Of a stretch of 64,000 nucleotides of DNA, positions 26,711 to 57,806 are shown one piece after another. The position numbers and the translations under genes were made by a program. Numbering within the stretch: the stretch's first letter is position 1; each line of letters starts with the position of its first letter. The stretch spans positions 186,657 to 250,656 of the forward strand of contig NZ_WTYV01000002.1 of NCBI RefSeq assembly GCF_009827655.1, in the 5' to 3' direction. Below the pieces are notes generated by a model, which was not told the DNA's origin, made no database searches, and worked only from the letters and a program-made list of their open reading frames with translations. The DNA comes from Alteraurantiacibacter buctensis. GTDB lineage: Bacteria > Pseudomonadota > Alphaproteobacteria > Sphingomonadales > Sphingomonadaceae.

Positions 26711-26732
26711 CAAAACCGGGGCATCGCCCAAA

Positions 26733-28251: not shown

Positions 28252-28252
28252 G

Positions 28253-30477: not shown

Positions 30478-30478
30478 G

Positions 30479-37586: not shown

Positions 37587-38084
37587 ATGGCCTACAAGAC
37601 CCGCACCGGTTCGCTGGCGTCCTATGAAAAGGGCGTGATCGAGCTGGATGACGACCTTCGCAAATACGCCTTTTCCAACGTGTTCGAGGTGGCCGGCAAG
37701 TCCGCCCCCTATGAACGCGTGGCCGTGGTGCAGAACCTGGAATACGTGGCCGAGGTTGTCCGCGCCGAGGGAGACAGCCCCTGGTATGCCGCCCCGCATG
37801 ACGAATTCGCCATCGTGATGGATGGGGAAGTCACCTTCCGCTTCGTGCAGTTGCAGGATGACCAGGTGCCTGGCCACGAGGGCGGTGCGATCCGCCTGGG
37901 GGCGGAGCCCAACGGCCCGCGCATGGGCCGCGTCACGGCGCGCAAGGGCCACCAGGTGCTGCTGCCCAAGGGGGCGGCCTACCAGCTTTCCAGCGCCAGG
38001 CCCTCGGTCGCCATTATCCAGACGGTGGACGGGCCGGAGACGGTGAAGAAGTGGAACGACATCTGCGTGCTGAAGGAGGCCTGA
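37587..38084 (+). CDS. Hydroquinone 1,2-dioxygenase, small subunit
   Basis: A 165-residue protein that matches the small subunit (HapC/PnpC type) of the two-component hydroquinone dioxygenase: it begins MAYKTRTGSLASYEKGVIEL, and has a cupin-like centre (HDEFAIVMDGEVTFRFV) and KGHQVLLPKGAAYQL. It lacks the metal-binding set and probably completes the dimer interface of the heterotetramer. The ATG at 37587 follows the GGGAGAGAGA ribosome-binding site. The large subunit starts 3 bases after its stop. Together they cleave hydroquinone to 4-hydroxymuconic semialdehyde. Confidence 0.82.
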   Translation: MAYKTRTGSLASYEKGVIELDDDLRKYAFSNVFEVAGKSAPYERVAVVQNLEYVAEVVRAEGDSPWYAAPHDEFAIVMDGEVTFRFVQLQDDQVPGHEGGAIRLGAEPNGPRMGRVTARKGHQVLLPKGAAYQLSSARPSVAIIQTVDGPETVKKWNDICVLKEA

Positions 38085-38087
38085 GAC

Positions 38088-39077
38088 ATGACCGTGCTTG
38101 ATGCAAAAGTGGAGCGTCTGGAAACCGACGAGGCCACCGGCTACACCGCTTTCCGCCTGGGCAGCTTCACCTTCCGGCGGGACGAGTATTTCGCCCATAT
38201 CTCATGGCCCAAGGGCAACCACATCATCGAGATCGACCGCTTCCTGCGCGCCACCGTGCGCGATATCGGCTGGGGGTTCTTCTACGGCTGGATCTTCTTC
38301 GATGACGTGTTCGGCACCACCAACCACTATGGCACGGTGGACGTCTTCGCCGGCAGCTATGACAAGGGCTGCAAGGACGCCGGGATCGACCATCTGGAGA
38401 CCTTCACAGCCGAAGCGGTGAGCGAGGCCTTCACCGCGATCAGCCAGGACTGGATCAGCCAGGGGTATGACCCGCTCAACGCCCCGCTGGAAACCGGCAC
38501 GCCGATCGGCCCCAAGGGTCCGGAGCGGACCGACCCGCTGCTGCGCGCCTTCATCGCGGCCGACCGGATGCTGGGCCTGCCGGGTGACAAGCCGGTGCGG
38601 TCCGATGCCAGCGGCTTCCCGGTCAACCGCGCCTTCGCCGACCTGGATTTCGACCTGCCCGACGTGGAGTGCGAACCCGGCTTCGAAGGCCAGTTGCACG
38701 CGATCAACCTGTTCGACCATATCGCCCGCAGCGACGTGACGTGGAACCCGTCGATCAGCGCCGTCACCCGGGCCAACATCTGCTGCGTCACATCCGAGGA
38801 GCACATGCTGCCGGTGATCCACGGCAACGACCGGAACGAGTGGTTCATCCAGCTGTCCGACGAGATCCACTGGAACATCGCCGACAAGAACAGCGGCGCA
38901 CCGCGCGGGCGGATCGTGATGAAGGCGGGCGACGTGTGCGCCATGCCGGCCGACATCCGCCACCAGGGCTTTGCGCCCAAGCGCTCGATGCTGATGGTGA
39001 TGGAAAACGGCACGCCGGGGCTGGAACAGCGCTATGCCAGCGGCGAGCTGAAGCCCTATCCGGTGGATTTCGGCTGA
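38088..39077 (+). CDS. Hydroquinone 1,2-dioxygenase, large (catalytic) subunit
   Basis: A 329-residue protein of the HapD/PnpD type with a bicupin-like fold. The iron ligands visible are His245, Asn247 and Glu251 in VIHGNDRNEWFI and His292 in DIRHQGF. These have the same spacing as the metal ligands I recall for PnpD of Pseudomonas (His256, Asn258, Glu262, His303, a constant offset of 11). Sphingomonas TTNP3 has an enzyme of this type that degrades hydroquinone from alkylphenol or bisphenol breakdown. It forms an operon with the small subunit and is followed by a TetR regulator 33 bases away. Confidence 0.85.
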   Translation: MTVLDAKVERLETDEATGYTAFRLGSFTFRRDEYFAHISWPKGNHIIEIDRFLRATVRDIGWGFFYGWIFFDDVFGTTNHYGTVDVFAGSYDKGCKDAGIDHLETFTAEAVSEAFTAISQDWISQGYDPLNAPLETGTPIGPKGPERTDPLLRAFIAADRMLGLPGDKPVRSDASGFPVNRAFADLDFDLPDVECEPGFEGQLHAINLFDHIARSDVTWNPSISAVTRANICCVTSEEHMLPVIHGNDRNEWFIQLSDEIHWNIADKNSGAPRGRIVMKAGDVCAMPADIRHQGFAPKRSMLMVMENGTPGLEQRYASGELKPYPVDFG

Positions 39078-39109: not shown

Positions 39110-39742
39110 ATGGGACGAGCGAACTTCGTGCGCGAGGATGCCGATACCAGGCGGCAGAGCCTGATCGCGGCATGTGCGGCCTGCCTGGCTGAGGAAGGGG
39201 CGCGGGGCGTTTCGGTGCGCTCGATCTGTCGCCGGGCGGGAGTCTCTGCCGGGCTGCTGACGCACTACTTCGCCGGGATCGACGAGCTGATCCTGGCAAC
39301 CTATCGCGACACCACCCGCAAGGTGACCGAGGCCACCGATGCCGCCGTCGCCGCCGCGGGCAGCGATCCGCGCGCGCGGTTAAAGGCCTATGTCACCGCC
39401 AGCCTGCGCCCGCCGCTACTTGATCCGCAACTGCTCGCCACCTGGCTGGCCTTCTGGAGCATGATGACTTCCAACGTGGCCGTGGCCCAGGTCCACGGCG
39501 AAACCTACGGCGAGTTCCGCCGCGGGCTGGAGGATCTGCTGCGCGAATGCTGCGGGGGCAGGCAAGGTGTCGATGACCTGCGTCTGGCCGCCATCGGCAT
39601 CACCGCCCTGGTGGACGGGCTGTGGCTGGAACTGTGCCTGGACCAGCGTGGCCCTTTCACGTCGGAAGAAGCGGAGAAGCTGGCACAGGTCCAGCTCGAT
39701 GCCCTGCTGGCACGCGAAGGCTGGGCCGGGCAGACCGGATAA
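39110..39742 (+). CDS. TetR/BetI family transcriptional regulator
   Basis: A 210-residue repressor with an N-terminal HTH (RQSLIAACAACLAEEGARGVSVRSICRRAGVSAGLLTHYFAG, residues about 15-55) and a helical ligand-binding domain resembling BetI-type regulators. It lies directly downstream of the hydroquinone dioxygenase genes in the same direction and probably controls them or the divergent dehydrogenase. It is also a candidate binder of the TGTTTTACA palindromes at 46-55 kb, although none is in its own operon. The ATG at 39110 is the first after the dioxygenase stop. Confidence 0.8.
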   Translation: MGRANFVREDADTRRQSLIAACAACLAEEGARGVSVRSICRRAGVSAGLLTHYFAGIDELILATYRDTTRKVTEATDAAVAAAGSDPRARLKAYVTASLRPPLLDPQLLATWLAFWSMMTSNVAVAQVHGETYGEFRRGLEDLLRECCGGRQGVDDLRLAAIGITALVDGLWLELCLDQRGPFTSEEAEKLAQVQLDALLAREGWAGQTG

Positions 39743-44479: not shown

Positions 44480-45139
44480 ATGCTGTTCGACCGTCGTGAC
44501 ATGATTGCCGGGCTGCTGGCCGTGCTGGGGGGATCGTCCATGCCCGGTTCTGCCAGCATGCTGCGGCCCGCCCCCGATAGCCGCCTCCCGTTGCCGCCCG
44601 CAGCTGTCGCCCCGCAGGCCGCAGGCCCGCCCGGCGTGCCCTTGTGGGATCAGGCGATGGCGGCACTGGAGCGCCATGCCGGCACCTTGCTGGCCGACCG
44701 GCTGGCGATTGCCGATTTTACCGCCGGATCGGCCCGGCCGCGCTTCCACCTTGTGGACCGCGAGGCAGGCAGCGTTACGGCGCTGCACGTGACCCACGGC
44801 TCCGGCTCGGACCCGGGCCACACCGGGCTGTTGCACCGCTTTTCCAACCAGCCGGGCTCCAACGCGACCAGTGCGGGGGCCTTTGTCACCCGGAACCCCT
44901 ACCACGGCCGGCACGGGCTGTCGCAACGGCTGGAAGGACTGGACCCCACAAACAACCTGGCGCTGGACCGGGCCATCGTGGTGCACGCGGCCTGGTATGC
45001 GGAAGCCGACGTGCTGGCACAGACCGGCAAGCTGGGGCGCAGCCAGGGCTGCTTCGCCTTCGCCCAGGCCGATCTGGCGCGGGTGATGGACTTCCTGGGT
45101 GAAGGCCGGCTGATCTACAGCGGCCGCAGCGTGGGTTAG
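44480..45139 (+). CDS. Murein L,D-transpeptidase catalytic domain family protein
   Basis: A 219-residue exported protein. The chosen start gives a twin-arginine-type signal (MLFDRRDMIAGLLAVLGG). The C-terminal half contains LHVTHGSGSDPGHTG, an NPYHGRHGLSQRLEGLDP segment and GRSQGCFAFAQADL, where the conserved Cys of the S-x-G-C active site stands. Proteins of this type are placed near YkuD-like L,D-transpeptidases, which crosslink or trim peptidoglycan. An upstream ATG at 44420 is possible. The stop overlaps the convergent oxidoreductase stop by 4 bases. Confidence 0.75.
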   Translation: MLFDRRDMIAGLLAVLGGSSMPGSASMLRPAPDSRLPLPPAAVAPQAAGPPGVPLWDQAMAALERHAGTLLADRLAIADFTAGSARPRFHLVDREAGSVTALHVTHGSGSDPGHTGLLHRFSNQPGSNATSAGAFVTRNPYHGRHGLSQRLEGLDPTNNLALDRAIVVHAAWYAEADVLAQTGKLGRSQGCFAFAQADLARVMDFLGEGRLIYSGRSVG

Positions 45140-46740
45140 CCGAACAGGCGCCCTAGCACGCTGCGGTCCTTCAGGATGGCGGCGGCGGCGTTGTGTCCCG
45201 GCGCGCCGGTTACCCCGCCGCCCGGATGGGTGCCCGCGCCGCACATGTACAGGCCCTTCACCGGCGCGCGATAGCTGCCGTGGCCCAGCACCGGGCGCGC
45301 GGCCCAGAGCTGGTCCAGCCCCATGTTGCCGTGCATGATGTCGCCGCCGATCAGCCCGAACTTGCGTTCAAGATCCAGCGGGGAGTGGACCTGGCGGGCG
45401 ATCACGCTGGCGCGGAAGCCGGGGGCGTGGGCCTCCACCGTGTCGATGATGCAATCGGCCGCTACCTCGCGCTCGTCATCCCAGCTTCGCCCGTCGGGCA
45501 GTTCGGGGGCGAACTGCTGGCAGAACAGGCTGGCCACATGCTGGCCCGGCGGGGCCAGGGTGTCGTCCACGGTGGAGGGGATCAGCATTTCCACGATCGG
45601 CTGCTTCGACCAGCCATAACGCTTCGCGTCCAGGAAGGCGCGGTCCATGTAATCCAGCGTGGGGGCAATGATGATGCCGCTCTGGTGGTGTTCACCGGGT
45701 TCGGGCAGGCAGGTAAAGCGCGGCAGCTCGCTCAGCGCCACGTTCATGCGGAAGGTGCCGCTGCCGGCCTTAAAGCCGCGCATCCGGCGGCGGAAATCCT
45801 CGGGCAGGGCGCTTTGCGGCACCAGCCGGTCATAGAGCAGCTTGGGCCCCACGTTGGCCGCCACGATCGGCGCCACCAGTTCCTCGCCGCTGACCAGCTT
45901 CACGCCCACGGCCTTGCCACCATCGACCAGCACCTCGGCCACCGGGCTTTCCAGGCTGATTTCCACACCCAGCTTCTCGCAGGCCTGGCGCATGGCCCCG
46001 GTGATTGCGCCCATGCCGCCCACGGCGTGGCCCCAGGCACCCTTCTTGCCGTTCACCTCGCCGAACACGTGGTGCAGCAGGACATAGGCGCTGCCGGGGG
46101 TGTCCGGGCTGGCATAGTTGCCGACTACGGCATCGAAGCCGAAGGCGGCCTTGACAGCCTCGCTCTCGAACCACTGGTCCAGCATCCCGCGCGCGCTCTT
46201 GGCGAACATGTCGAGCAGGTCGCGCTTGGCTTCCAGCGGCAGGCTGGCCAGCGGGCGGCCCTGCGCGGCGGCGGCGATCAGCGTGGTCAGCCCTTCGCCC
46301 ATGTTGGGCGGAGCCTTGAGGGCGAGGCTGCGCAAGATGTCGGCAATCCGCTCCAGCGCATCGTAATAGGCGGGCAGCGCCTCGGCATCGCGGGCGGAAA
46401 ACTTGCGGAATTCCTCCTGCGTTTTCAGCATACCTCCACCAAGCTTCAGGTAGCCTCCGTCTTCCTGCGGCAGGAAATTGCTGATCGGCCGCTCGATCAC
46501 GCGATAGCCGTAATCGGCCAGCCGCATGTCCGCGATCACCTTGGGTTGCAGCAGGCTGACGGTGTAGCTGGCGGTGGAATTGCGGAAGCCGGGGGCAAAT
46601 TCCTCTGTCACCGCCGCGCCGCCGACCACGGCCCTCGCTTCCAGAACGCGCACTGACAGGCCGGCGCGGGCGAGGTAGAAGGCGCAGGTGAGGCCGTTGT
46701 GGCCACCGCCGATGATCAGGGCGTCATAAGTCTTGGTCAT
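45136..46740 (-). CDS. FAD-dependent oxidoreductase (phytoene desaturase/PYROXD2-like)
   Basis: A 534-residue flavoprotein. The N-terminal dinucleotide motif is DALIIGGGHNGLTCAFYLARAG followed by VLEARAVVGGAAVTEEFAPG, and the C-terminal FAD region is YMCGAGTHPGGGVTGAPGHNAA. It belongs to the CrtI-like group that includes PYROXD2, not to the carotenoid desaturases of the crt operon, and its substrate is unknown. It shares a promoter region with the amidohydrolase at 46806, including the palindrome at 46753-46776, which starts only 12 bases from its ATG. Confidence 0.8.
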   Translation of the reverse strand: MTKTYDALIIGGGHNGLTCAFYLARAGLSVRVLEARAVVGGAAVTEEFAPGFRNSTASYTVSLLQPKVIADMRLADYGYRVIERPISNFLPQEDGGYLKLGGGMLKTQEEFRKFSARDAEALPAYYDALERIADILRSLALKAPPNMGEGLTTLIAAAAQGRPLASLPLEAKRDLLDMFAKSARGMLDQWFESEAVKAAFGFDAVVGNYASPDTPGSAYVLLHHVFGEVNGKKGAWGHAVGGMGAITGAMRQACEKLGVEISLESPVAEVLVDGGKAVGVKLVSGEELVAPIVAANVGPKLLYDRLVPQSALPEDFRRRMRGFKAGSGTFRMNVALSELPRFTCLPEPGEHHQSGIIIAPTLDYMDRAFLDAKRYGWSKQPIVEMLIPSTVDDTLAPPGQHVASLFCQQFAPELPDGRSWDDEREVAADCIIDTVEAHAPGFRASVIARQVHSPLDLERKFGLIGGDIMHGNMGLDQLWAARPVLGHGSYRAPVKGLYMCGAGTHPGGGVTGAPGHNAAAAILKDRSVLGRLFG

Positions 46741-46752
46741 GGATGATCCTTG

Positions 46753-46776
46753 CTTGTTTTACACTTGTAAGACAAG
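46753..46776. promoter_or_regulatory. Palindromic operator, site 1 (CTTGTTTTACA...)
   Basis: A near-perfect 24-base palindrome, CTTGTTTTACAC joined to TTGTAAGACAAG, between the divergent FAD oxidoreductase and amidohydrolase genes. The 20-base core fits TGTTTTACA-N2-TGTNAAACA, which recurs at 50411, 51901 and 55290. The position at both promoters suggests a TetR-like repressor. Confidence 0.6.
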
Positions 46777-46805
46777 ATTGGCGGCGAAACAAGCGAGGAG
46801 GGCTT

Positions 46806-48089
46806 ATGGCACGGTTGGCGGCGGCGGCAATTGGTCTGGCGGCGATAGTGGCGCTGGGCACCTCGCCCGCGCTGGCGGACCCGGCCTATGTTCACGCCGG
46901 GCGGCTGGTGGATGTGCAGGCGGGCCGCGTGCTGACCGACCAGCGCATTGTCATCGAGGACGAGCGGATCGTGGCAGTGGAGCCGTGGAGCCCGCCCGGC
47001 CCCGGTTCGCAGGTGATCGACTGGTCCGGCATGACCGTGTTGCCCGGCCTGATCGATGCCCATACCCACCTGGCGGACTGGGGCCAGAGCAACAACGTGG
47101 CCGAGCCGCTGCTGCATTCCCCACAGGAAATCGCCCTGATCGGCGCGCACCATGCGCGGGTCACGCTGGAGGCAGGGTTCACCAGTGTGCGTGACGTGGG
47201 CACCTTCCGCGCTTTTGGCGACGTGGCGCTGCGCGATGCCATCCATCGCGGCTGGGTGCCCGGCCCGCGCATGTGGGTGGCCAGTTCCTACATCACCGTG
47301 CCCGGCGGGGGCGGGGAGGTGACCGGCTTTGCCCACGGGGTTGAAGTGCCCGAGGACATGCGCGTGGGCGTGGTCCGCAATGCCGACGAGGTGCGCGAGA
47401 AGAGCCGCTACCTGTTCCAGCACGGGGTCGATTTCCTGAAGCTGATCGCCACCGGCGCCGTACTGGCTGAAGGGACCGAACCAGGCGCGATCGAGCTGTC
47501 CGAAGAAGAGATTGCCGCCGCGGTGGAAGTGGCGCGCGGCTATGGCAGCTATGCCACGGCCCATGCCCACGGGGCCGAGGGCATCCGCCAGGCGATCCGC
47601 GCCGGGGTCCGCTCTATCGAGCACGCCAGCCTGATCGACGCCGAAGGTATCCGCATGGCGCGCGAGGCCGGCACCTGGCTGGTGATGGACATCTACAACG
47701 GCGATTTCATCGAGGAGGTGGGCACGCGCGACGGCTGGCCCGCCGACATGCTGCGCAAGAACGAGGAGACGACCGACGCCCAGCGCGAAGGTTTCACCCG
47801 CGCGGTGCAGGCCGGGGTGCGGATTGCCTATGGCACCGATGCGGGCGTCTTCCCGCACGGCGATAACGCCCGCCAGTTCGCCTACATGGTCCGCTATGGC
47901 ATGACGCCGATGCAAGCCATCCAGAGCGCCACGATCAGCGTGGCCGAGCTGATGATGGCGCAGGATGTGGGGGCGATTGCCCCGGGCCGCTTTGCCGACA
48001 TGGTGGCGGTTGACGAAGACCCGCTGGCCGACATCACCGCGCTGGAGCGGATCGACCACGTGATGCAGGGGGGCAGGGTGGTGCGCTAG
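46806..48089 (+). CDS. Exported amidohydrolase (prolidase/imidazolonepropionase-like)
   Basis: A 427-residue TIM-barrel metal hydrolase with a Sec signal peptide (cleavage probably after LA at about residue 23). Metal ligands are visible: GLIDAHTHL (His pair), a Lys in FLKLIATGA, TAHAHGAEG, SIEHASL and the Asp in AYGTDAGVFPHG. This group includes Xaa-Pro (Xaa-Arg) dipeptidases of the amidohydrolase superfamily. Position beside S9 and M20 peptidase genes fits periplasmic dipeptide breakdown. The first in-frame ATG is upstream at 46743, but 46806 begins the signal sequence. Confidence 0.82.
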   Translation: MARLAAAAIGLAAIVALGTSPALADPAYVHAGRLVDVQAGRVLTDQRIVIEDERIVAVEPWSPPGPGSQVIDWSGMTVLPGLIDAHTHLADWGQSNNVAEPLLHSPQEIALIGAHHARVTLEAGFTSVRDVGTFRAFGDVALRDAIHRGWVPGPRMWVASSYITVPGGGGEVTGFAHGVEVPEDMRVGVVRNADEVREKSRYLFQHGVDFLKLIATGAVLAEGTEPGAIELSEEEIAAAVEVARGYGSYATAHAHGAEGIRQAIRAGVRSIEHASLIDAEGIRMAREAGTWLVMDIYNGDFIEEVGTRDGWPADMLRKNEETTDAQREGFTRAVQAGVRIAYGTDAGVFPHGDNARQFAYMVRYGMTPMQAIQSATISVAELMMAQDVGAIAPGRFADMVAVDEDPLADITALERIDHVMQGGRVVR

Positions 48090-48394
48090 TCGCGCCGCCG
48101 TTTGCCCTCCACCAGCACTGCATGCTGCCACTTGCCCGGCACCTTGTCGGTCCGGTGGATACAGCCGGCCCAGCAGCAGGGGCGGCGGTTGCCTTCGGCC
48201 AGCTCCGCAAGCGTGCGGGTGATGCGTTTTGCGCGGGTGGCGGGTTGCTTTGCGTCTTCCACCCAACAGATAAACTCGTTGCGGCCGAGCGGGGTCAGGC
48301 CCTGCCACAGGGCCAATTGCGCAGGCTGTTCTCTCAGCGCGGCCTCAAGATCCGCTGGAACTTCGTGGACGGTGCCCTGGGCGATTGCAGTCAT
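48086..48394 (-). CDS. YdeI/OmpD-associated family protein
   Basis: A 102-residue protein with the typical pattern PADLEAALREQPAQLALWQGLTPLGRNEFICWVEDAKQPATRAKRITRTLAELAEG, seen in the short C-terminal domain of YdeI/OmpD-associated proteins. Members have been linked to bacteriocin or stress tolerance, but the mechanism is unknown. It lacks a signal peptide. A basic tail with two cysteines follows. The stop overlaps that of the amidohydrolase gene, and it lies 12 bases downstream of the S9 peptidase start region on the same strand order (peptidase stop at 48407). Confidence 0.7.
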   Translation of the reverse strand: MTAIAQGTVHEVPADLEAALREQPAQLALWQGLTPLGRNEFICWVEDAKQPATRAKRITRTLAELAEGNRRPCCWAGCIHRTDKVPGKWQHAVLVEGKRRRD

Positions 48395-48406
48395 CCGGCC
48401 TTACCC

Positions 48407-50398
48407 TCATTGCCCCCGCAGCCACCTATCATACCAAGCAATAGACCGCACCATGCGGTCCTTCAGGTAGCTGGGCACCACCAGCCCGTGGTTCTGCCCC
48501 GGATAGACCACCAGCGTGGTCGGCACGTCGTTGCTTTGCAGCGCCTGGTACATCGCCAGCGAGCCTTCGCACGGCACGTTCCAGTCCTTCTCGGCGCACA
48601 GGTACAGGGTGGGGGCGGTGATGCGTTCGGACTGGAAGAAGGGGTAGGATAGCTGCATCCACCGCTCCACGTTGTTCCACGGCTCGCCCAGTTCCAGCAC
48701 GTAGTCGCGGGCATATTCGTCCACGCCGAAGCCGCCGAAGAAGTTGGCCATACCGGCGCCCGCCACCGCCGCCTTCACGCGGGTGTCGCTGGCGATCATG
48801 TAGTTCGACAGGATGCCGCCATAGGACCAGCCGCCCACGCCGATCTGGTCCGGACGGGACACGCCGTTGTCGATCGCCCAGGTGATCCCGGCGCTGATGT
48901 CGGCCGCGTCGACCGTGCCCCAGCGGCCCATCTGTGCCTGGGCAAAGGCCGCCCCGCGCCCGGAAGATCCGCGCGGGTTGATCGCCAGCACGGCATAGCC
49001 GGCGGCGGCGAACACCTGGTGGTCGGCCATGAATTCGTGGCTGAACTGGTACACCGGCCCCCCGTGCAGCCGCACGATCATGGGCAGGGGTGTATCCTGC
49101 TCGCGCCCCGCAGGCAGGGTGAGCAGGCCGTGGATTTGCACCCCGTCGCTGGTGAAGCTGACATCCTGCGTAGTCGCCAGGCGGCGGTTGGCCAGCCAGC
49201 GGTTGTGCGGCGACAGCATACGCGGGCTCGCCTCGACCGAGCGCAGCGCCAGCGGTGTCAGCGGGTCGCCGTCCAGCACTGCCAGTTGACCCTGCGGCCC
49301 CTCGGCAAAGTCATAGGCGAAGCGCGCCCCGCCGGTCAGGTATTCCACCGCATCGGTGGCGGGGTCGATGCGGGCCAGCCAGGTGTCCTGCGGCTGCTCG
49401 ACCAGCGCCAGGATATGGCGGCCATCGTGGCTCCATTCGGGCTGCTGCACCCAGCGGTCGATCCAGGCGACCTGCCGTTCCTGCCCGCTGGCGAGATCGG
49501 CCACCACCAGTTGCAGCGGGTTGTACCAGGTCTCCTGCGGCGGGCCGCTGCGCAGCCACAGCAGGCGGCGGCCATCCGGCGACCACTGCGGGGCATTGGT
49601 GTCCATGCCGGGGTCGGCGTCTTCGCCCTTGAACGTGTCGATCCGCCGCGCCGGGCCGCCGGCTACCGGCATCACGTAAACGTCCGAACAGCGCAGGCGA
49701 ACGGCGGGATCGCACTGGCGCGAGACATAGGCGAGCTGGGTGCCATCGGGCGAGAGGCTGGGATGGCCCACATCGTAATCGCCGCTGGTCACCGGCACGG
49801 CCTCGCTGCCGGGCGTAAAGTCCACGCGGAACAGGTGGGTACGGCGATCGTCCACGAAGCCGCGATAGTCCTCGCGCGCGGTGAAGCGGGTGATCACGAT
49901 GGGCGGGGCCACTGCGGGCGCTTCGGCCACCACGTTGGTGCCAACCTCGGTGAGGACTATGGCAAAGCTGCCGTCGGGAGCCAGCGAATAGTCACTGACG
50001 CCGCCCGCCAGCGTGCTGACCTGGCGCGGCGGTTCGCCAGCGGTACTGGCCCACAGCTGCGCCGCCTCGCCTTCCGCCCCGCTGCGGATGAAAGCGAAAA
50101 CGCGCCCGTCGGCGCTCCAGCGGGGCATGGCCTCGTCGCGGTCCAGCGTGGGGTAGAGCGGCTGCGCGCTGCTGCCGTCCCATTGGGCGATCCAGATGTC
50201 GGACTGCGAAGCATCCCCCTCGGCCGGGCCATTGACCACATAGGCAATCCGCGCGCCATCGGGGGCGAAGACCGGGTCTGACAGGTCCTCCAGCCGCAGC
50301 ACGTCGTCCACGGTAAAGGGCGCGGCCTCCTGCGCGGCCAGCGCGCCAGGCAGGGTGGCAAGCGCCACGGTGGCGAGGAGCAGCGGCAGGCGAAGCAT
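48407..50398 (-). CDS. S9 family (prolyl oligopeptidase/acylaminoacyl) peptidase
   Basis: A 663-residue exported serine peptidase with a signal peptide (MLRLPLLLATVALATLPGALAA). A beta-propeller of WD-like TolB-type repeats (PVFAPDGARIAYV, PRWSADGRVFAFI, PSLSPDGTQLAYV, PQWSPDGRRLLWL, PEWSHDGRHILAL) covers about residues 30-400. The alpha/beta-hydrolase domain has the nucleophile in GGWSYGG, Asp in CAEKDWNVP and His in GQNHGL. The protein likely removes peptides N- or C-terminal of Pro or acyl groups in the periplasm. The ATG at 50398 is preferred over 50437. It is divergent from the M20 peptidase. Confidence 0.88.
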   Translation of the reverse strand: MLRLPLLLATVALATLPGALAAQEAAPFTVDDVLRLEDLSDPVFAPDGARIAYVVNGPAEGDASQSDIWIAQWDGSSAQPLYPTLDRDEAMPRWSADGRVFAFIRSGAEGEAAQLWASTAGEPPRQVSTLAGGVSDYSLAPDGSFAIVLTEVGTNVVAEAPAVAPPIVITRFTAREDYRGFVDDRRTHLFRVDFTPGSEAVPVTSGDYDVGHPSLSPDGTQLAYVSRQCDPAVRLRCSDVYVMPVAGGPARRIDTFKGEDADPGMDTNAPQWSPDGRRLLWLRSGPPQETWYNPLQLVVADLASGQERQVAWIDRWVQQPEWSHDGRHILALVEQPQDTWLARIDPATDAVEYLTGGARFAYDFAEGPQGQLAVLDGDPLTPLALRSVEASPRMLSPHNRWLANRRLATTQDVSFTSDGVQIHGLLTLPAGREQDTPLPMIVRLHGGPVYQFSHEFMADHQVFAAAGYAVLAINPRGSSGRGAAFAQAQMGRWGTVDAADISAGITWAIDNGVSRPDQIGVGGWSYGGILSNYMIASDTRVKAAVAGAGMANFFGGFGVDEYARDYVLELGEPWNNVERWMQLSYPFFQSERITAPTLYLCAEKDWNVPCEGSLAMYQALQSNDVPTTLVVYPGQNHGLVVPSYLKDRMVRSIAWYDRWLRGQ

Positions 50399-50410
50399 GG
50401 CTATGGGTCC

Positions 50411-50430
50411 TGTTTTACAACTGTCCACTT
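50411..50430. promoter_or_regulatory. Operator, site 2 (degenerate right half)
   Basis: TGTTTTACAACTGTCCACTT. The left half fits the consensus exactly; the right half fits only its first three bases (TGT). It lies between the divergent S9 and M20 peptidase genes, 13 bases from the S9 start codon. Confidence 0.5.
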
Positions 50431-50485
50431 GCAGCACGGCGCGGCTTGCGGTTCAAGGGTGGTTCCAGACGAAAGGAATTTTGCC

Positions 50486-51895
50486 GTGCGCCCCTCTCCC
50501 AAGCGCCATGCCGCCACCCTGCTCGCCGCTGCCGCCCTTGCAGGACTGGCCCAGCCCGCCGCCGCGCAGGCCGATCAGACGCTGGCACGGCAACTGCTGG
50601 CGGAAGCGGTCGCCAGCAACACCGCGCCCAGCGGCGGCACCACCACGCGGCCCTTGGTGGACCTGCTGGTGCGCCACCTGCGCGCCGCGGACTTCAGCGA
50701 GGCGGACATCGCCACCCCCGCCATCAGCGAAGCGCTGCCCAGCCTGGTCGTCCGCTATCGCAGCCCGAACCCGCAAGCGCGCCCGGTGTTGCTGATGGCG
50801 CACATGGACGTGGTGGAGGCCCTGCCAGCGGACTGGTCCTACCCCCCGTTCGAACTGACCGAGGAGGACGGCTGGCTCTATGGCCGCGGTTCTGAGGACA
50901 ACAAGGCGGGCGTCGCCATCCTGGTGGCCAATTTCATCCGCCTGAAGCAGGAAGGCTTCGTGCCCGACCGCGACCTGATCGTGATGCTGACGGCAGACGA
51001 GGAAACCAACGGCCTCTCCGCCCAGCAACTGCTCAGCCAGCATAGCGATCTGGTGGATGCAGAATTCGCCCTCAACACCGATGGCGGCGGGGTGATCGCG
51101 GACGAAGCAGGCAATCCGCAGGCCTTCATCATGCAGACGGCGGAAAAGGTCTATGCCACCTATGCCTTCACCGCCAGCGACCCCGGCGGCCATTCCAGCC
51201 TGCCCAAGCCCGACAGCCCGATCTCGGCCGTGGCGCGCGCGCTGGTGGCGCTGGAGGACTGGCACTTCCCGATCAACCTGGGCGAGACAAGTCGCAGCTT
51301 TTTCCGGCAATGGAGCGTGGTGGCCGACGCCGACGAGCGCCCGCTGCTGGCGGCGCTGGCAGCCTACCAGCCCGGTGATCTGGAGCCGGCAGGGCTGGCG
51401 GCCAACCCCTATTACAATTCGCTGGCGCGGACCACCTGCGTTGCCACGGGATTGACCGGTGGCCATGCCGAGAACGCCCTGCCGCAGAATGCCCGTGCGG
51501 TGATCAACTGCCGTGTCCTGCCGCAGGAAAGCGAGGCTTCGGTGCGTGAGCGGCTGGCCGCGCTGGCTGCGCCCTATGGCGTGACGGTGGAGGAGGTATT
51601 CCCCTATGCCGGCAGCCCGCCTTCGGCGCTGGAACCGGGGATCATGCAACTGGTGAGCGATACTGCGGCTCGCCATTTCGGGGTCATTCCGGTGATCCCG
51701 GAACTCAGCACCGGGGCCACCGACGGCTCGTTCACCCGCAGCGAGGGCATCCCCACCTATGGCGTGGGCGCGGTTGCCGAAGACCCCGCCGGCACCCGCA
51801 TCCACGGCAAGGACGAGCGGATCGCGATCACCTCGTTCAACCTGGCGCTGGATTACTGGTACGATCTGACCCGATCCGTAGCGACGCTCGATTGA
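50486..51895 (+). CDS. M20 family metallopeptidase, exported
   Basis: A 469-residue M20 zinc peptidase (carboxypeptidase/dipeptidase type) with a signal peptide ending AAAQA. Metal ligands: His-Asp in LLMAHMDVVEALP, Asp in GRGSEDNKAG, Glu pair in LTADEETNGLS and a C-terminal His in TRIHGKDER. A lid/dimerisation domain lies between about residues 200 and 340. Start is GTG at 50486 behind AAAGGA; the earlier in-frame ATG at 50429 overlaps the divergent operator region. It would process short peptides released by its S9 neighbour. Confidence 0.85.
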   Translation: MRPSPKRHAATLLAAAALAGLAQPAAAQADQTLARQLLAEAVASNTAPSGGTTTRPLVDLLVRHLRAADFSEADIATPAISEALPSLVVRYRSPNPQARPVLLMAHMDVVEALPADWSYPPFELTEEDGWLYGRGSEDNKAGVAILVANFIRLKQEGFVPDRDLIVMLTADEETNGLSAQQLLSQHSDLVDAEFALNTDGGGVIADEAGNPQAFIMQTAEKVYATYAFTASDPGGHSSLPKPDSPISAVARALVALEDWHFPINLGETSRSFFRQWSVVADADERPLLAALAAYQPGDLEPAGLAANPYYNSLARTTCVATGLTGGHAENALPQNARAVINCRVLPQESEASVRERLAALAAPYGVTVEEVFPYAGSPPSALEPGIMQLVSDTAARHFGVIPVIPELSTGATDGSFTRSEGIPTYGVGAVAEDPAGTRIHGKDERIAITSFNLALDYWYDLTRSVATLD

Positions 51896-51900
51896 TCCGC

Positions 51901-51920
51901 TGTTTTACATCTGTTAAACA
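51901..51920. promoter_or_regulatory. Palindromic operator, site 3
   Basis: TGTTTTACATCTGTTAAACA is an almost perfect palindrome. It ends 6 bases before the ATG of the Rieske oxygenase gene. It therefore covers the position of the ribosome-binding site and no Shine-Dalgarno is visible between, so a leaderless transcript or direct blocking by a repressor is likely. Confidence 0.6.
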
Positions 51921-51926
51921 AGCGCC

Positions 51927-53099
51927 ATGACCGAGATGACCAAACCCGTTGCCGACCAGTCCGGCTGGAGCCTGCCGGCCTGGACCTATTCCGATGCCGA
52001 CTTCATGGCGCTGGAAAAGGCCAAGCTGTTTATGCCGGCCTGGCACCTGGTGTGCCACGTGTCCGACATTCCGCGGCCCGGCGATTACCAGACCTTCGCC
52101 ATGATGGGCGAGCGGGCCGTGGTGGTGCGCGGGCGCGACGGGGCGATCCGCGCCTTCCACAACGTCTGCCCGCACCGCGCGGCACGGTTGCTGGATGGCG
52201 AGAGCGGCAATTGCGGCGGGCGCGTCACCTGCCCCTATCATGCCTGGTCCTTCGGGCTTGATGGCAAGCTGCTGGCGGTGCCCTTCATCGAGGAATACGA
52301 GAATTTCGAGAAGGCGGATTTCGGCCTGTTCCCGCTGGAGCACGCGGTCAGCCACGGCTTCGTCTATATCCGCTTCGAAAACGGCGGGCAGAGCCTCGAC
52401 GAATTCCTCGCCCCGATCGAGGAGGAGATGGGCCTCTACCGCTTCGGGGCGATGGAGCCGCTGGTGCCGATCCGCAGCCGCGTGCGCGAGGTCAACTGGA
52501 AGAACGCCTGCGACAATTATGTGGATGCCCTGCACGTGCGCGTGGCGCACCCCGGTTTGAACAGCCTGGTGCGCGATACCTATCGCCTGACGATTGATCG
52601 CGGGGTGGACAAGATCTTCGCCGAAGCGGGCGCGGGCAAGAGCGCGCACGCCAGCGTCACCGCCTATCGCGAGGTGCTGCCCCGGGTGGACCATCTGCCC
52701 GAGGAGCGGCAGCAGATGTGGACCTATTACCGGCTGTTTCCCGGCCTGATGTTCGATGTCTACCCGGACCAGATCGACTTCATGCAGTTCATTCCGCTAA
52801 CCCCCACCACCTGCATCCTGCGCGACGGGGCCTATGCCCTGCCTGACAGCCGGCGCGAGATGAAGGCAGCGCGCTATCTCAACGGGCGGATCAACCGCGA
52901 CGTGAACTTCGAGGACAAGGGCCTGATCGAGCGGGTGCAGGACGGCATGGGCACCAGCCGCTTCCGGCAAGGGCCGCTGGGGAAGAACGAGATTTGCCTG
53001 CGCGCATTTGCCCAGCGGATGCGGCGCGAAATCCCGATCAGCGCCGAAGTCGACCGGCCATCGCCGGAACGGTTGCGCGAAAGCCTGAACGCGGCCTAA
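51927..53099 (+). CDS. Rieske non-haem iron oxygenase, alpha subunit
   Basis: A 390-residue ring-hydroxylating-type oxygenase. The Rieske cluster ligands are Cys81, His83 (CPHR) and Cys102, His105 (CPYHAW). The mononuclear iron site is NWKNACDNYVDALHVRVAHPG with bridging Asp200, His203 and His208, the same spacing as in naphthalene dioxygenase (Asp205, His208, His213). The sequence resembles single-component choline/carnitine/stachydrine-type monooxygenases more than aromatic dioxygenases. No reductase or ferredoxin gene is in the window. The ATG at 51927 lies next to operator site 3, so it belongs to the 45-57 kb regulon. Confidence 0.82.
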   Translation: MTEMTKPVADQSGWSLPAWTYSDADFMALEKAKLFMPAWHLVCHVSDIPRPGDYQTFAMMGERAVVVRGRDGAIRAFHNVCPHRAARLLDGESGNCGGRVTCPYHAWSFGLDGKLLAVPFIEEYENFEKADFGLFPLEHAVSHGFVYIRFENGGQSLDEFLAPIEEEMGLYRFGAMEPLVPIRSRVREVNWKNACDNYVDALHVRVAHPGLNSLVRDTYRLTIDRGVDKIFAEAGAGKSAHASVTAYREVLPRVDHLPEERQQMWTYYRLFPGLMFDVYPDQIDFMQFIPLTPTTCILRDGAYALPDSRREMKAARYLNGRINRDVNFEDKGLIERVQDGMGTSRFRQGPLGKNEICLRAFAQRMRREIPISAEVDRPSPERLRESLNAA

Positions 53100-53109
53100 C
53101 CTGCCCGCC

Positions 53110-53460
53110 ATGAGCGGACACAAGATCTACGGCATGGCCTTTGCGCGCATCTATCCGATGTACGTGGCCAAGGTGAAGAGGAAGGGCCGCAGCACGGGCG
53201 AGCTGGACCAGGTGATTGCCTGGCATACCGGTTATGCGGGCGCATCGCTGGACGCGGCGCTGGGGGACGAGCGCAGCATGGAAGCTTTCTTCGCCCAGGC
53301 TCCGGCGCTGAACCCGGCGCGCGAGCTGGTCACCGGCAAGGTTTGCGGGGTGCAGGTGGAAACGGTGGCAGAGCCGCTGATGCGGGAGATACGCATACTC
53401 GACAAGCTGGTGGACGAACTGGCCAGGGGCCGCTCGCTGGAGAAGATCCTGCGCGCATGA
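53110..53460 (+). CDS. DUF2200 family protein
   Basis: A 116-residue soluble protein; KIYGMAFARIYPMYVAKVKRKGR, ELDQVIAWHTGY and KVCGVQVETVAEPLMREIRILDKLVDELARG are the core of DUF2200. The function is unknown. The ATG is 10 bases after the Rieske stop, and the stop overlaps the next start by 4 bases, so it is within the same operon. Confidence 0.8.
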   Translation: MSGHKIYGMAFARIYPMYVAKVKRKGRSTGELDQVIAWHTGYAGASLDAALGDERSMEAFFAQAPALNPARELVTGKVCGVQVETVAEPLMREIRILDKLVDELARGRSLEKILRA

Positions 53461-55199
53461 GCCAGTCCGCCGCTCCCACCATCTCCCAGCTACAGGCCTT
53501 CCTGGCCGCCAATCCGCAATCGGCCGATGGCTGGCGGGTGCTGGGCGATGCCTTCACGGCTGCAGGCAAGGTGGCCGATGCCGATGCGGCCTATGCCCGT
53601 GCAATCAAGGCCGCCACGCGCGACCCGGAGCTGCTGCAGGCGGCCGATGCGCTGGTGCGGGGCGAGCTGGCCGTGGCCGAGCCGATCCTGCGCGGCCGCC
53701 TGAAGCGCGCGCCCACCGATGTCGCAGCGATCCGAATGCTGGCCGAACTGGCCAGCCGCCTGGGCCGGTTCGGCGATGCCGAGAAGCTGTTGCGCCGCGC
53801 GCTGGAACTGGCGCCCAGCTTCCGCGTCGCCCGCCACAACCTGGCGCTGGTGCTGCACCGCCAGGGCCGCAGCGTGGAGGCGCTGGACGAGATTGCCGCG
53901 CTGGAAGCCGATGGCGAGGACACTGCCGCCTTGGCCAACCTGAAGGCGGCGGCTCTGGGCCGCATCGGCGACTATGGCGATGCCCTGGCCCTTTACGAGG
54001 AGGCGCTGGATCGCCGTCCCGCACAGCCCAAGACCTGGATGAGCTATGCCCACGCTCTCAAGACCGTGGGCCGCCAGGCCGATGCCGTGGCCGCCTATCG
54101 CCGGGCAATCGAACTGCAGCCGGGCATGGGAGAGGCCTGGTGGAGCCTCGCCAACCTGAAGCGCGTGGCCTTCGCGCCGGAGGACCGCGCTGCCATGCGC
54201 CGGGCGCTGGCGGGGGAGCTGTCGCAGGAAGACCGCTTCCACCTGGAATTCGCGCTGGGCAAGGCGGAGGAGGACGCGGGCGATTTTCCCGCCTCGTTCG
54301 CCCACTATGCGCGCGGCAATGCCCTGCGCCGCACGATGATCCGGCACGATCCGGCAGAACTGGACGACCAGGTGGCACGCGCGCGCGCGCTGTTCACCCC
54401 GAGCTTCCTCGCGCAACGGCAGGGGTGGGGTTGCCAGGCGACGGACCCGATCTTCATCCTCGGGATGCCCCGCGCCGGATCGACGCTGCTGGAACAGGTG
54501 CTGGCCAGCCATCCGGCGGTGGAAGGCACGATGGAACTGCCCGATATCCCGCAGCTCGTCACCCGCGTGTCAGGCCGCAAGCTGCGCAGCGAGCCGAGCG
54601 CCTATCCCGAGGCGTTGGCCGCCCTCACGGCGGAGCATGCCCGGGCGCTGGGCGAGGAATACCTGGAAAACACCCGCGTGCAGCGCAAGACCGATGCACC
54701 GCATTTCATCGACAAGCTGCCCAACAACTGGCTGCACGTGGGCCTGATCCGCCTGATCCTGCCCAATGCGCGGATCATCGATGCGCGCCGCCACCCGCTG
54801 GCCTGCTGTTTTTCCAACTTCAAGCAGCACTTCGCGCGGGGCCAGACTTTCTCCTACAGCCTGGAGGATATGGGCCACTATTACCGCCGCTATACCGAGC
54901 TTCTGGCCCATTTCGACGAGGTGCAGCCCGGCCTGGTGCACCGCGTGTTCTACGAGCGGGTGGTAGAGGACCTTGAGGGCGAGGTGCGCCGGATGCTGGC
55001 CTTCCTGGGCCTGCCGTTCGATCCGGCCTGCCTGCGCTATTACGAAAGCGAGCGGGCGGTGCGCACCGCCAGTTCCGAACAGGTGCGCGAGCCGATCTTC
55101 CGCCAGGGGCTGGACCAGTGGCGGCACTACGAACCCTGGCTCGATCCGCTGAAACAGGCCCTCGGGCCGGCGCTCGCGGACTATCCGCACCAGTCCTGA
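53457..55199 (+). CDS. TPR-repeat sulfotransferase
   Basis: A 580-residue protein. Residues about 10-290 form tetratricopeptide repeats (for example GWRVLGDAFTAAGKVADADAAYARAI). The C-terminal sulfotransferase domain begins with the PAPS-binding loop PIFILGMPRAGSTLLEQVL (331-349), followed by FIDKLPNNWLHVGLIRLILPNARIIDARRHPLACC, a second PAPS contact. It transfers sulfate from PAPS to a peptide, sugar or small molecule. No PAPS-synthesis gene is nearby. The start overlaps the DUF2200 stop (ATGA), so it is cotranscribed with DUF2200 and the Rieske gene. Confidence 0.85.
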   Translation: MSQSAAPTISQLQAFLAANPQSADGWRVLGDAFTAAGKVADADAAYARAIKAATRDPELLQAADALVRGELAVAEPILRGRLKRAPTDVAAIRMLAELASRLGRFGDAEKLLRRALELAPSFRVARHNLALVLHRQGRSVEALDEIAALEADGEDTAALANLKAAALGRIGDYGDALALYEEALDRRPAQPKTWMSYAHALKTVGRQADAVAAYRRAIELQPGMGEAWWSLANLKRVAFAPEDRAAMRRALAGELSQEDRFHLEFALGKAEEDAGDFPASFAHYARGNALRRTMIRHDPAELDDQVARARALFTPSFLAQRQGWGCQATDPIFILGMPRAGSTLLEQVLASHPAVEGTMELPDIPQLVTRVSGRKLRSEPSAYPEALAALTAEHARALGEEYLENTRVQRKTDAPHFIDKLPNNWLHVGLIRLILPNARIIDARRHPLACCFSNFKQHFARGQTFSYSLEDMGHYYRRYTELLAHFDEVQPGLVHRVFYERVVEDLEGEVRRMLAFLGLPFDPACLRYYESERAVRTASSEQVREPIFRQGLDQWRHYEPWLDPLKQALGPALADYPHQS

Positions 55200-55289
55200 G
55201 CCGTGGGGAGACTGTGGCCTTTGCGCCATAGTCTCTCGCCTTCGCAACATGGTTTCAGCGCAAACTTGACAGTTCGGTGACGGAGGAGT

Positions 55290-55309
55290 TCTTTTACACC
55301 TGTCAAACT
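55290..55309. promoter_or_regulatory. Palindromic operator, site 4
   Basis: TCTTTTACACCTGTCAAACT fits TGTTTTACA-N2-TGTNAAACA with mismatches only at the ends. It lies about 65 bases upstream of the TonB-dependent receptor start, in the 5' promoter zone. Confidence 0.5.
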
Positions 55310-55373
55310 GGGTGCCGTGCCGGGGGACAGGCCGCCGGCGCCTTGATCGATGGCGAACAGAAAAGGGGTCAAT

Positions 55374-57806
55374 ATGGGTACTGTGCGCATTGGCATGGCA
55401 GCGGGGCGGACCGGCAGGGCGCTGGGCGGTCTGCTGCTGGGGTCAACCATTCTGGCGGGCGTGCCCGCGCTGGCGCAGGATGCCGCCACTACCGAAGCAG
55501 AGGATGACGTGATCGTCGTGACCTCGCAGCGGCGCGAGCAGGACCTGCAGGACGTGCCGCTGTCCGTACAGGTGCTGGGCACCGAGCAGATGGACAACCT
55601 CCAAGTCAGCGACTTCGAGGACTATGTGAAGTTCCTGCCCAGCGTTTCCACCACCAACTTCGGCGGGCCGTTCAACCAGCTGGTCTACATGCGCGGCGTC
55701 GCCAGCGGGGGTGACGGCAACCACTCCGGCCCGATGCCTTCGGTCGGCACTTATCTGGACGAGCAGCCGATCACCACGGCGCAGGGCAACCTCAACGTCC
55801 ACCTCTACGATATCGCCCGCGTGGAATCGCTGGCCGGGCCGCAGGGCACCCTCTACGGCGCCAGCAGCCAGGCTGGCACCATCCGCATCATCACCAACAA
55901 GCCCGACACGTCGGGTTTTGACATGAGCCTGGATGGAGAGCTCAACACCGTGGCGCATGGCGCCGAGGGCGGCTCACTGGAAGGCATGATCAACCTGCCG
56001 CTGAACGACATGGCTGCACTTCGCGTGGTGGGCTGGTACGTGCAGGACGCGGGCTACATCGACAACGTCCGCGTACGCCGGGTCTATCCCACGTCCGGCG
56101 CAGCCGATGACAACGGCTTTCTGGCCGAAGACAACTTCAATAACGTCGAGACCTATGGTGCCCGCGCGGCGCTGGGCATCGATCTGGACGACAACTGGAC
56201 CGTGACCCCGGCGGTGATGGCCCAGCACCAGCGCGCCAACGGCAGCTTCGCGTGGAACCCGCGCTTGGGTGACCTCAATACCGCCGTCTATCGCGACAAT
56301 TACGGCGTAGATGAATGGTATCAGGCATCGCTGGCGGTGGAAGGCAAGATTGGCAACTTCGATCTGGTCTATTCGGGCGCCTACCTTGATCGCGCGATCG
56401 ACAGCCTGAACGACTATTCGGACTACTCGTACTTCTACGATACCGAAGCGGGCTATGGCACCTACTTCGTGGGCGATTGCCCGGCCAACGACTATTCGTG
56501 TGATCCGATCAACCCCTCGCAATACATCCGCGGCCGCGACCGGTTCACCAAGCTGAGCCAGGAACTGCGCCTGTCGACCGATATCGGGGACCGGCTGCGC
56601 TTCACCGGCGGTGCGTTCTTCCAGCGCCAGACGCACAACATCGAGCAGGCCTACACCATCGACAACCTGGCCCAGTTCCTGGGCGTGACCGGTTGGGACG
56701 ATACCATCTGGCTGACCAAGCAGGAACGCGTGGACCGCGACTTTGCCGTGTTCGGCCAGGCCGAATTCGACCTCACCGACGATCTGACGCTGACCGGCGG
56801 CGCGCGCTATTTCCGCTACAACAACACGCTGGTGGGCTTCTTCGGCTATTCCACCGGCAACGCCTTCTCCAGCGGCGAAAAGCAGTGCTTCGCCGGGCCG
56901 GTGGTGGAAGGTTCGCCCTGTACCAACCTCGGCTCGGTAAGCGGCGGCGTGGTCAACCCGGCGCGGTCGAAGGACGATGGCTACATCCACCGCCTCAACC
57001 TCACCTGGAATGCGACTCCGGACAACATGTTCTATGCCACCTGGTCGCGCGGGTTCCGTCCCGGCGGCAGCAACCGGCGCGGCGGCTTTGCCTATGGGGC
57101 GGACTTCCTGACCAACTACGAAGTAGGCATGAAGCACACCCTGGCCGATGGCATGGTGCGGTGGAACACGGCGGTCTTCCAGCAGGACTGGAACAACTTC
57201 CAGTTTGCCATCCTTGGTCCCAACGGCCTGACCGAGATCCGCAACGCCGCCCAGGCCCGTATCCGGGGCATCGAAAGCGACGTGACGATCATGCCCGGCG
57301 ACGGGCTTACCATCGGCGTGGGCGGGACCTACCTTGATGCCAAGCTGTCGGCCAACTACTGCGGCACCACGGACGCTCAGGGTGTGCCGATTACCAATTG
57401 CGGGGCCCCGCTGGCGGCGCGTGGCACCCAGCTTCCCGCATCGCCCGATTTCAAGGGCAACGTGGTAGCCCGCTACGAGTTCGAAACCGATCTGGACCTG
57501 CTGGGCCACATCCAGCTGGCGGGAGTTTACCAGACGGGCATTCGCACCGAGTTGCAGGACGCCGACGACGCGCTGATCGGTCGCCAGGCCGGGTATGGCA
57601 CGATCGACTTCGCGGCGGGCGTGGAAAGCGAGGAGGACGGATGGAACCTGGAGTTCTACATCACCAACCTGCTGGATGAACGCGGTACCAATTACCAGTA
57701 TACCCAGTGCTTCATCTCGGTGTGCGCCAATCCCACCACCGGTATCGTATACCAGGTGCCCAACCAGCCCGCGACAATGGGCATCAAGTTCGGCTGGGAG
57801 TACTGA
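55374..57806 (+). CDS. TonB-dependent outer-membrane receptor
   Basis: An 810-residue receptor with a signal peptide ending ALAQ (about residue 35), a TonB box/plug region (DDVIVVTSQRREQDLQDVPLSVQV, YMRGVASGGD, LYGASSQAGTIRIITNKP) and a C-terminal beta barrel ending in FGWEY. Arg/Gly and aromatic-rich strands (GFRPGGSNRRGGF) are typical. It imports an energy-dependent nutrient. The ATG at 55374 is preferred over 55350 because AAAAGGGG lies about 6 bases upstream. Operator site 4 and the catabolic neighbours suggest that it imports the substrate of the peptidase/Rieske pathway. Confidence 0.9.
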   Translation: MGTVRIGMAAGRTGRALGGLLLGSTILAGVPALAQDAATTEAEDDVIVVTSQRREQDLQDVPLSVQVLGTEQMDNLQVSDFEDYVKFLPSVSTTNFGGPFNQLVYMRGVASGGDGNHSGPMPSVGTYLDEQPITTAQGNLNVHLYDIARVESLAGPQGTLYGASSQAGTIRIITNKPDTSGFDMSLDGELNTVAHGAEGGSLEGMINLPLNDMAALRVVGWYVQDAGYIDNVRVRRVYPTSGAADDNGFLAEDNFNNVETYGARAALGIDLDDNWTVTPAVMAQHQRANGSFAWNPRLGDLNTAVYRDNYGVDEWYQASLAVEGKIGNFDLVYSGAYLDRAIDSLNDYSDYSYFYDTEAGYGTYFVGDCPANDYSCDPINPSQYIRGRDRFTKLSQELRLSTDIGDRLRFTGGAFFQRQTHNIEQAYTIDNLAQFLGVTGWDDTIWLTKQERVDRDFAVFGQAEFDLTDDLTLTGGARYFRYNNTLVGFFGYSTGNAFSSGEKQCFAGPVVEGSPCTNLGSVSGGVVNPARSKDDGYIHRLNLTWNATPDNMFYATWSRGFRPGGSNRRGGFAYGADFLTNYEVGMKHTLADGMVRWNTAVFQQDWNNFQFAILGPNGLTEIRNAAQARIRGIESDVTIMPGDGLTIGVGGTYLDAKLSANYCGTTDAQGVPITNCGAPLAARGTQLPASPDFKGNVVARYEFETDLDLLGHIQLAGVYQTGIRTELQDADDALIGRQAGYGTIDFAAGVESEEDGWNLEFYITNLLDERGTNYQYTQCFISVCANPTTGIVYQVPNQPATMGIKFGWEY

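Follow-up and report, generated by a model that had tools for sequence, protein, structure and literature searches.

A palindromic operator shared by Rieske oxygenase, flavoprotein and peptidase genes in Alteraurantiacibacter buctensis, and its probable TetR-family regulator

Rieske enzymes that demethylate quaternary amines at nitrogen or cleave their C-N bonds include the carnitine monooxygenase CntA, GbcA and stachydrine demethylase. The two-component systems of CntA and GbcA are paired with a dedicated FNR-type (PF00175) reductase, and BetI is the choline-sensing TetR repressor known from betaine regulons. Here we describe a 64,000-nucleotide stretch of the A. buctensis genome (contig NZ_WTYV01000002.1, positions 186,657 to 250,656; hereafter the window), in which four copies of one palindrome precede genes for a flavin adenine dinucleotide (FAD) oxidoreductase, peptidases, a Rieske oxygenase and a TonB-dependent receptor. 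These copies are probably the operators of a TetR-family protein encoded in the same window and controlling one regulon. The locus resembles BetI and the betaine regulons in the TetR fold, the BetI-type C-terminal domain and a palindromic operator beside oxidative genes, but its gene set and operator are different, and the TetR protein scores under both BetI equivalog cut-offs (112.7 vs 201.3 and 109.2 vs 118). Its design is that of an ordinary TetR system; no description of this regulator, operator and gene set was found in the portions of the open literature searched. Comparison across genomes lends good support to the operator set and its regulator, and the nutrient is a reasoned guess.

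A sequence-only reading of the window had proposed that a palindromic operator occurs there in several copies, and the pattern search bore this out. With up to 3 mismatches on the best strand, TGTTTTACA-N2-TGTNAAACA matched the window at 46755 (1 mismatch), 51901 (0) and 55290 (2), which gives 6 strand-matches, where 100 shuffles averaged 0.01. The first copy, proposed to extend to a 24-base palindrome, is a near-palindrome, since positions 46753-46776 read CTTGTTTTACACTTGTAAGACAAG with 2 mismatched base pairs. The site at 50411, described before as a half-site, has 4 mismatches and was therefore outside this search, and was recovered by looser searches as a weaker copy. When the matrix values were taken from 19 sites of 14 loci in other genera, with neither the window nor the same-genus locus L051 among them, the four sites ranked first in the window at 30.2, 29.8, 21.7 and 18.3 bits (the last for 50411), and the next position reached 8.8. 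In a larger leave-out matrix (56 sites) they scored 28.1, 26.4, 16.0 and 16.0 bits, followed by 8.2.

All four sites, first proposed to lie in promoter zones, are intergenic with the gene-caller starts, a placement that depends on the choice of start because the longest open frames would overlap the first two sites; for the amidohydrolase, the start at 46806, behind AGGAGG, was preferred over 46743. Two of the four gaps separate divergent gene pairs, FAD oxidoreductase and amidohydrolase (46741-46805) and S9 and M20 peptidase (50399-50485), and the others are upstream of the Rieske gene (51896-51926) and the TonB gene (55200-55349). The earlier observation of no further copies also held on a wider scale: in the 3.77-Mb genome, the 20-bp pattern at up to 3 mismatches found only the three window sites (reversed control, 0), and a looser pattern gave 15 forward and 15 reverse matches vs 24 and 28 in the controls, with no excess beyond the cluster. 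Weak matches at window position 54807, L042:2115 and L061:886 were set aside as coding coincidences, for they share near-identical letters and those of the window and L042 fall within sulfotransferase genes.

The idea that one operator marks one regulon gained strength from other bacteria, in which related genes follow an operator of this kind. A pattern search with up to 2 mismatches located sites in 34 genomes from a set of 298 that belong to the same family and include the window's own, and tblastn of the window proteins showed that many of the short loci around them hold relatives of the same genes. Identities were about 47-51% for the Rieske protein, 72-88% for the FAD oxidoreductase (often over a partial alignment), 67-69% for the amidohydrolase, 35-40% for M20 and 49-59% for TetR, in rows that leave out seven own-genome loci around the sites. 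Gene calling and clustering were applied to larger stretches of 20 motif-found loci and to 80 loci fetched from named genomes by Rieske homology alone, making 101 sources with the window, a few of which represent the same genome twice. Eight families recurred: Rieske (87 sources), FAD oxidoreductase (61), amino-acid permease (47), TetR (38), TPR-sulfotransferase (36), TonB receptor (33), M20 (28) and amidohydrolase (17). Beyond these, no family occurred in more than 5 of the 101 sources. The named loci come from Polymorphobacter, Sandaracinobacter, Sphingomonas, Novosphingobium, Qipengyuania, Sphingopyxis, Caulobacter and Kordiimonas, among others. Four motif-fetched loci, L055, L056, L057 and L058, were without the eight families and were kept out of training.

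The matrix consensus is TGTTATACAATTGTATAACA, and sites oriented to the Rieske gene approximate TGTTATACRATYGTNCAACA. An operator above 9 bits was located upstream of 43 of 87 Rieske, 30 of 38 TetR, 10 of 18 amidohydrolase, 7 of 63 FAD, 7 of 33 TonB, 6 of 28 M20, 2 of 37 sulfotransferase and 2 of 48 permease genes, counts that take in the sites used to build the matrix. A scan with independent matrix values covered 77 of the 80 loci fetched without regard to the motif (L070, L075 and L100 were left out); only the values are independent, as the training positions of the 19-site matrix were picked with a matrix that had seen all loci. At 18 bits or more, 31 sites were detected, 27 of them near the starts of cluster-family genes, and the Markov control gave 0; three further sites (L098, L103, L131) stand directly before a Rieske match, leaving one exception at L061:10875. 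Lowering the threshold to 15 bits gave 42 sites with 34 near starts and 8 exceptions, those of L098, L103 and L131 included (control, 1), and 12 bits gave 49 sites with 37 near starts and 12 exceptions (control, 6). Loci at about 31-39% Rieske identity (L124, L125, L127, L128, L133-L136, L138) were inspected only in part.

The TetR protein of the window, already named as a candidate in the sequence-only reading, is very probably the regulator of this operator set, judging from its gene neighbourhoods in relatives. Its TetR_N domain scored 42.6 bits (Pfam cut-off 24), which places it in the TetR family, and it is the sole ortholog in its own genome (303 bits, next candidate 32) of the TetR proteins that adjoin the operator in other genera, to which it is 49-58% identical. 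TetR and operator also co-occur: among 70 of the 80 loci, kept because about 1.2 kb precedes their Rieske-family gene, both were present in 24, TetR only in 3, the operator only in 5 and neither in 38 (Fisher p 7e-11, uncorrected for shared ancestry). The three "TetR only" loci do carry the operator elsewhere, before the FAD gene in L083 and L085 and beside TetR in L115. In the same-genus locus L051, a TetR protein 72% identical to it adjoins the FAD gene, and in relatives the operator often lies between divergent TetR and Rieske genes. More distant TetR proteins (31-34%) occur together with similar operators in L041, L045 and L049, which points to a possible sister regulator for some clusters. 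In the window, genes for an aldehyde dehydrogenase and a PnpD-like hydroquinone dioxygenase (36002-39077) immediately precede the TetR gene. PnpD was rejected as a conserved partner of TetR, since the gene preceding TetR in L051 is unrelated to it.

Further evidence was obtained from 43 Rieske promoters with a site of at least 15 bits and full flanks (one genome is present twice, as L039 and L075, and L048, L100 and L129 are near-copies). The strongest conservation beyond the operator edges is TTG at -18 to -16 (26, 29 and 29 of 43); a TACRAT-like element lies 17 bp away, within the operator (positions 5-10). By eye, the window FAD promoter fits this -35/-10 spacing, with TTGTTT at -18. Promoter-like elements around and inside the operator would fit a repressor. 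Based on this layout, we propose that TetR binds the 20-bp palindrome as a dimer and, by covering the -10 or core promoter elements, would repress the FAD oxidoreductase, amidohydrolase, S9 and M20 genes, the Rieske-DUF2200-sulfotransferase operon and the TonB receptor gene. A compound derived from the imported nutrient would release the repressor; peptides would then be imported across the outer membrane and trimmed by presumably exported peptidases, and an N-methylated amino acid would be oxidised by the Rieske oxygenase together with the flavoprotein. The features concerned are listed in Table 1.

Table 1 Features of the putative regulon in the window, and related operons in other genomes
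Feature	Position	Strand	Basis or remark
TetR-family regulator with BetI-like C-terminal domain, proposed repressor	39110..39742	+	Pfam TetR_N and TetR_C_6 above cut-off
FAD oxidoreductase, CrtO/CrtI branch	45136..46740	-	profile matches; model pLDDT 90.0
Operator 1	46755..46774		common to FAD oxidoreductase and amidohydrolase genes; pattern and both matrices
Amidohydrolase	46806..48089	+	Xaa-Pro dipeptidase NF051886 above cut-off; nearest solved relative L-Arg carboxypeptidase Cc2672
S9 prolyl-oligopeptidase-family peptidase	48407..50398	-	profile matches; signal-peptide-like N-terminus (by eye)
Operator 2, weak	50411..50430		between divergent S9/M20 genes; 18.3 and 16.0 bits (two matrices)
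M20-family peptidase	50486..51895	+	profile matches, gene calling
Operator 3, strongest	51901..51920		before Rieske operon; pattern and both matrices
Rieske oxygenase, related to carnitine/betaine monooxygenases	51927..53099	+	domain, solved-relative and fold searches; model pLDDT 91.2
DUF2200 protein, in Rieske operon	53110..53460	+	profile match
TPR-sulfotransferase	53457..55199	+	domain match; 4-base overlap with DUF2200 gene
Operator 4	55290..55309		before TonB receptor gene; pattern and both matrices
TonB-dependent receptor	55374..57806	+	profile matches, gene calling; start 55350 also possible
Dimethylargininase-like-gene-bearing Rieske/permease operons	L079:9965-14862, L069:7764-11110, L082:7804-11131		gene calling and profile matches

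The Rieske protein contains a Rieske domain (82.3 bits, cut-off 20.3) and a ring-hydroxylating catalytic domain (122.7 bits, cut-off 24.9). Its nearest solved sequences belong to CntA, and the fold search with its model placed CntA and stachydrine demethylase first, with the uncharacterised ring-hydroxylating-type structure 3n0q among them and aromatic dioxygenases later. Nevertheless, it differs from these described enzymes in several respects. It scored 125.4 against the GbcA equivalog cut-off of 670, and its Asp200, kept in at least 90% of 42 aligned relatives, takes the place of the CntA Glu that lies between the two metal sites. Unlike the CntA and GbcA pairing, no PF00175 reductase match was obtained in the profile search of the genome (99.73% complete; control positive in 10 of 14 genomes). 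Given that three PF14759 ferredoxin reductases are present instead, a shared ferredoxin may supply the electrons for the Rieske enzyme. In L059 and L060, which hold the two nearest Rieske relatives, an M16-type peptidase gene lies between the FAD and Rieske genes (L059:7503-9962, by clustering; L060:7555-9975, by Pfam).

Among NCBIfam families, the FAD protein matches the carotenoid ketolase CrtO best, yet its score of 257.4 stays far below the cut-off of 1000, and the fold search with its model gave carotenoid desaturases as nearest, then nicotine and amine oxidases. Only one (L176) of 10 loci in other bacterial families with more than 570 bits to the FAD protein (L176-L184, L195) also matches the Rieske and TetR references, so the enzyme is also found outside this cluster. 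Of 20 stretches with an FAD protein taken from other parts of the class, 5 contain a GcvT-like gene: it adjoins a tandem FAD pair in L185, L188 and L192, is the next called gene in L189, and is nearby on the other strand in L186. The FAD proteins of these five are more distant paralogs, and none of the ten closest loci gave a GcvT-like match, L179 and L183 among them being short stretches. Folate enzymes of the GcvT kind often accept methyl groups from oxidised N-methyl amines. The CrtO-branch tandem pairs with their GcvT-like gene, which belong to other alphaproteobacterial families, are at L185:3225-7599, L188:3033-7644 and L192:1-4568.

Through CrtO, the FAD protein is also indirectly linked to animal PYROXD2. 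In the house finch, PYROXD2 shares about 35% identity with CrtO and displayed no carotenoid activity (PMC12010460). In humans, variants of PYROXD2 account for about half of the variance in blood N6-methyl-lysine and N6,N6-dimethyl-lysine and are also associated with trimethyl-lysine (PMC8109053); associations are likewise given with mono- and dimethyl-lysine (PMC11988406), methyl-lysine (PMC9763692), dimethylamine (PMC3706909) and trimethylamine (PMC8777681). A caveat to the methyl-lysine reading is that the variants track symmetric dimethylarginine too (PMC11988406). No report of the reaction of PYROXD2 was met in the portions of its literature consulted.

The amidohydrolase has a signal-peptide-like N-terminus by eye and scored 535.1 against the cut-off of 500 for NF051886, a family named Xaa-Pro dipeptidase. 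Its closest solved relative is instead the Caulobacter L-Xaa-L-Arg/Lys carboxypeptidase Cc2672 (E 1.7e-100); Cc2672 is reported to hydrolyse L-Xaa-L-Arg/Lys dipeptides (PMC11342369). Since the best solved relative is an Arg/Lys carboxypeptidase, the proline specificity implied by the family name is doubtful here. For the S9 gene, the lasso-peptide isopeptidase Atxe2 was rejected (150.1, cut-off 400). The permease of relatives had a basic amino acid/polyamine antiporter as best NCBIfam match and AdiC as best solved match, all below cut-offs. The window cluster holds no AdiC-like permease, and its regulon is without such a member because the genome holds only a 37% relative elsewhere.

A dimethylargininase/arginine deiminase-like (DDAH) gene occurs in an apparent same operon at 3 of the 87 Rieske-family loci, in the orders APC-DDAH-Rieske (L069), DDAH-APC-Rieske (L082, 121 bp from DDAH to APC) and Rieske-FAD-DDAH-APC (L079), and a fourth match, at L133, stands some 8 kb away from a distant Rieske gene. 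Among solved structures, dimethylarginine dimethylaminohydrolases are the nearest to the L082 protein (E 3.6e-45); the NCBIfam scores of the L069 and L082 proteins are below cut-off. The union of outer-membrane import, peptide cleavage and oxidation first read from the gene list still describes the set. Of the substrates named there, a proline-rich or N-methylated peptide or betaine, the Rieske fold and the neighbouring genes favour the N-methylated peptide or betaine, with basic residues (Lys/Arg) favoured over proline. We tentatively regard N-methylated lysine or arginine, not proline, as the most likely substrate class, because of the Rieske fold, the DDAH-like genes, the basic permease, the GcvT neighbours and the PYROXD2 associations, all of them circumstantial. 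A fuller scheme is possible, and somewhat more speculative. The regulon might scavenge post-translationally methylated basic amino acids, in that peptides with methyl-lysine (methyl-arginine in some relatives) would be imported and trimmed, the Rieske oxygenase would attack trimethyl-lysine, and the flavoprotein of the CrtO/PYROXD2 branch would oxidise the di- and monomethyl forms. Nothing was found on a Rieske-dimethylargininase cluster, or under phrases such as "methyllysine catabolism", in the portions of the open literature searched.

Several observations count against a TetR-controlled regulon of this kind. The two weaker sites (16.0 bits each in the leave-out matrix) barely exceed the Markov maximum of 15.3 in 60 windows, and so they also rest on their position and on operators elsewhere before TonB genes (L040, L054) and M20 genes (L047, L052, L054, L117). 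No site above 9 bits precedes 44 of the 87 Rieske genes. The Fisher p value for the co-occurrence of TetR and operator ignores shared ancestry and comes from a matrix that included sites of the tested loci. The expectation that the regulator has a site at its own promoter failed in the window (best score -8.9), the layout being present in relatives, and the TetR gene lies 32 bp behind the PnpD-like gene. By eye, the window Rieske and TonB promoters are without the -35/-10 spacing described above. The substrate reading, for its part, is weakened by the window locus having neither the permease nor a DDAH-like gene.

With regulon and regulator unchanged, the substrate could instead be of the betaine type (proline betaine, glycine betaine or carnitine), sensed by the BetI-like protein. 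The nearness of the Rieske fold to CntA and stachydrine demethylase and the BetI-type C-terminal domain of TetR speak for this, but TetR is under the BetI cut-offs, the Rieske protein is far under that of GbcA, and peptidases, together with the basic-amino-acid-type permease and DDAH-like genes of relatives, are unexpected for free betaines; we consider this rather doubtful. That another regulator owns the operators, for example a BlaI/MecI-type repressor or another TetR, with the window TetR serving the adjacent hydroquinone genes, is distinctly unlikely. This was suggested by the operator core ACA-N2-TGT, as the BlaI/MecI-type core is TACA-N2-TGTA, and by the TetR gene following a PnpD-like gene without an operator of its own. 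However, the single BlaI-family gene is remote (C15:730343), for which BlaI/MecI was set aside, the TetR orthologs adjoin the operator in other genera, and L051 lacks the PnpD arrangement. An aromatic amino acid or aromatic amide as the substrate of the same regulon and regulator is just as improbable: the PnpD-like gene beside TetR, a flavin monooxygenase gene between the Rieske and FAD genes of L048 and ochratoxin-type amidohydrolases among the solved relatives of the amidohydrolase point that way, whereas quaternary-ammonium Rieske enzymes top the fold ranking, Cc2672 is the closest solved amidohydrolase, and none of the eight common gene families is an aromatic one. That the four copies arose by chance or as local duplicates and have no regulatory role, as the imperfection of two of them might suggest, is hardly credible given the 0.01 matches expected and the recurrence of the operator before related genes in other genera.

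The TetR-controlled regulon proposed here gives a name to the regulator, the operator and the conserved gene set, and it makes a vague "catabolic regulon" specific enough to test. Should the methyl-lysine reading be true, it would explain how bacteria recycle methylated residues from dead protein, it would provide a bacterial counterpart or model for human PYROXD2 with testable chemistry, and the repressor could be used as a sensor for the compound.

Elsewhere in the window, positions 16190-31966 hold a polyamine-utilisation-like cluster with two glutamine-synthetase-type genes, ABC transporter parts, two aldehyde dehydrogenases and a class III aminotransferase; in L054, relatives of the window genes 16190, 17548 and 20171 adjoin the regulon. 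Outside the window, the same genome carries a separate palindrome, TCATCTACATATGTAGAACA, at G000:C22:2030-2049, which we take to resemble BlaI-type operators.

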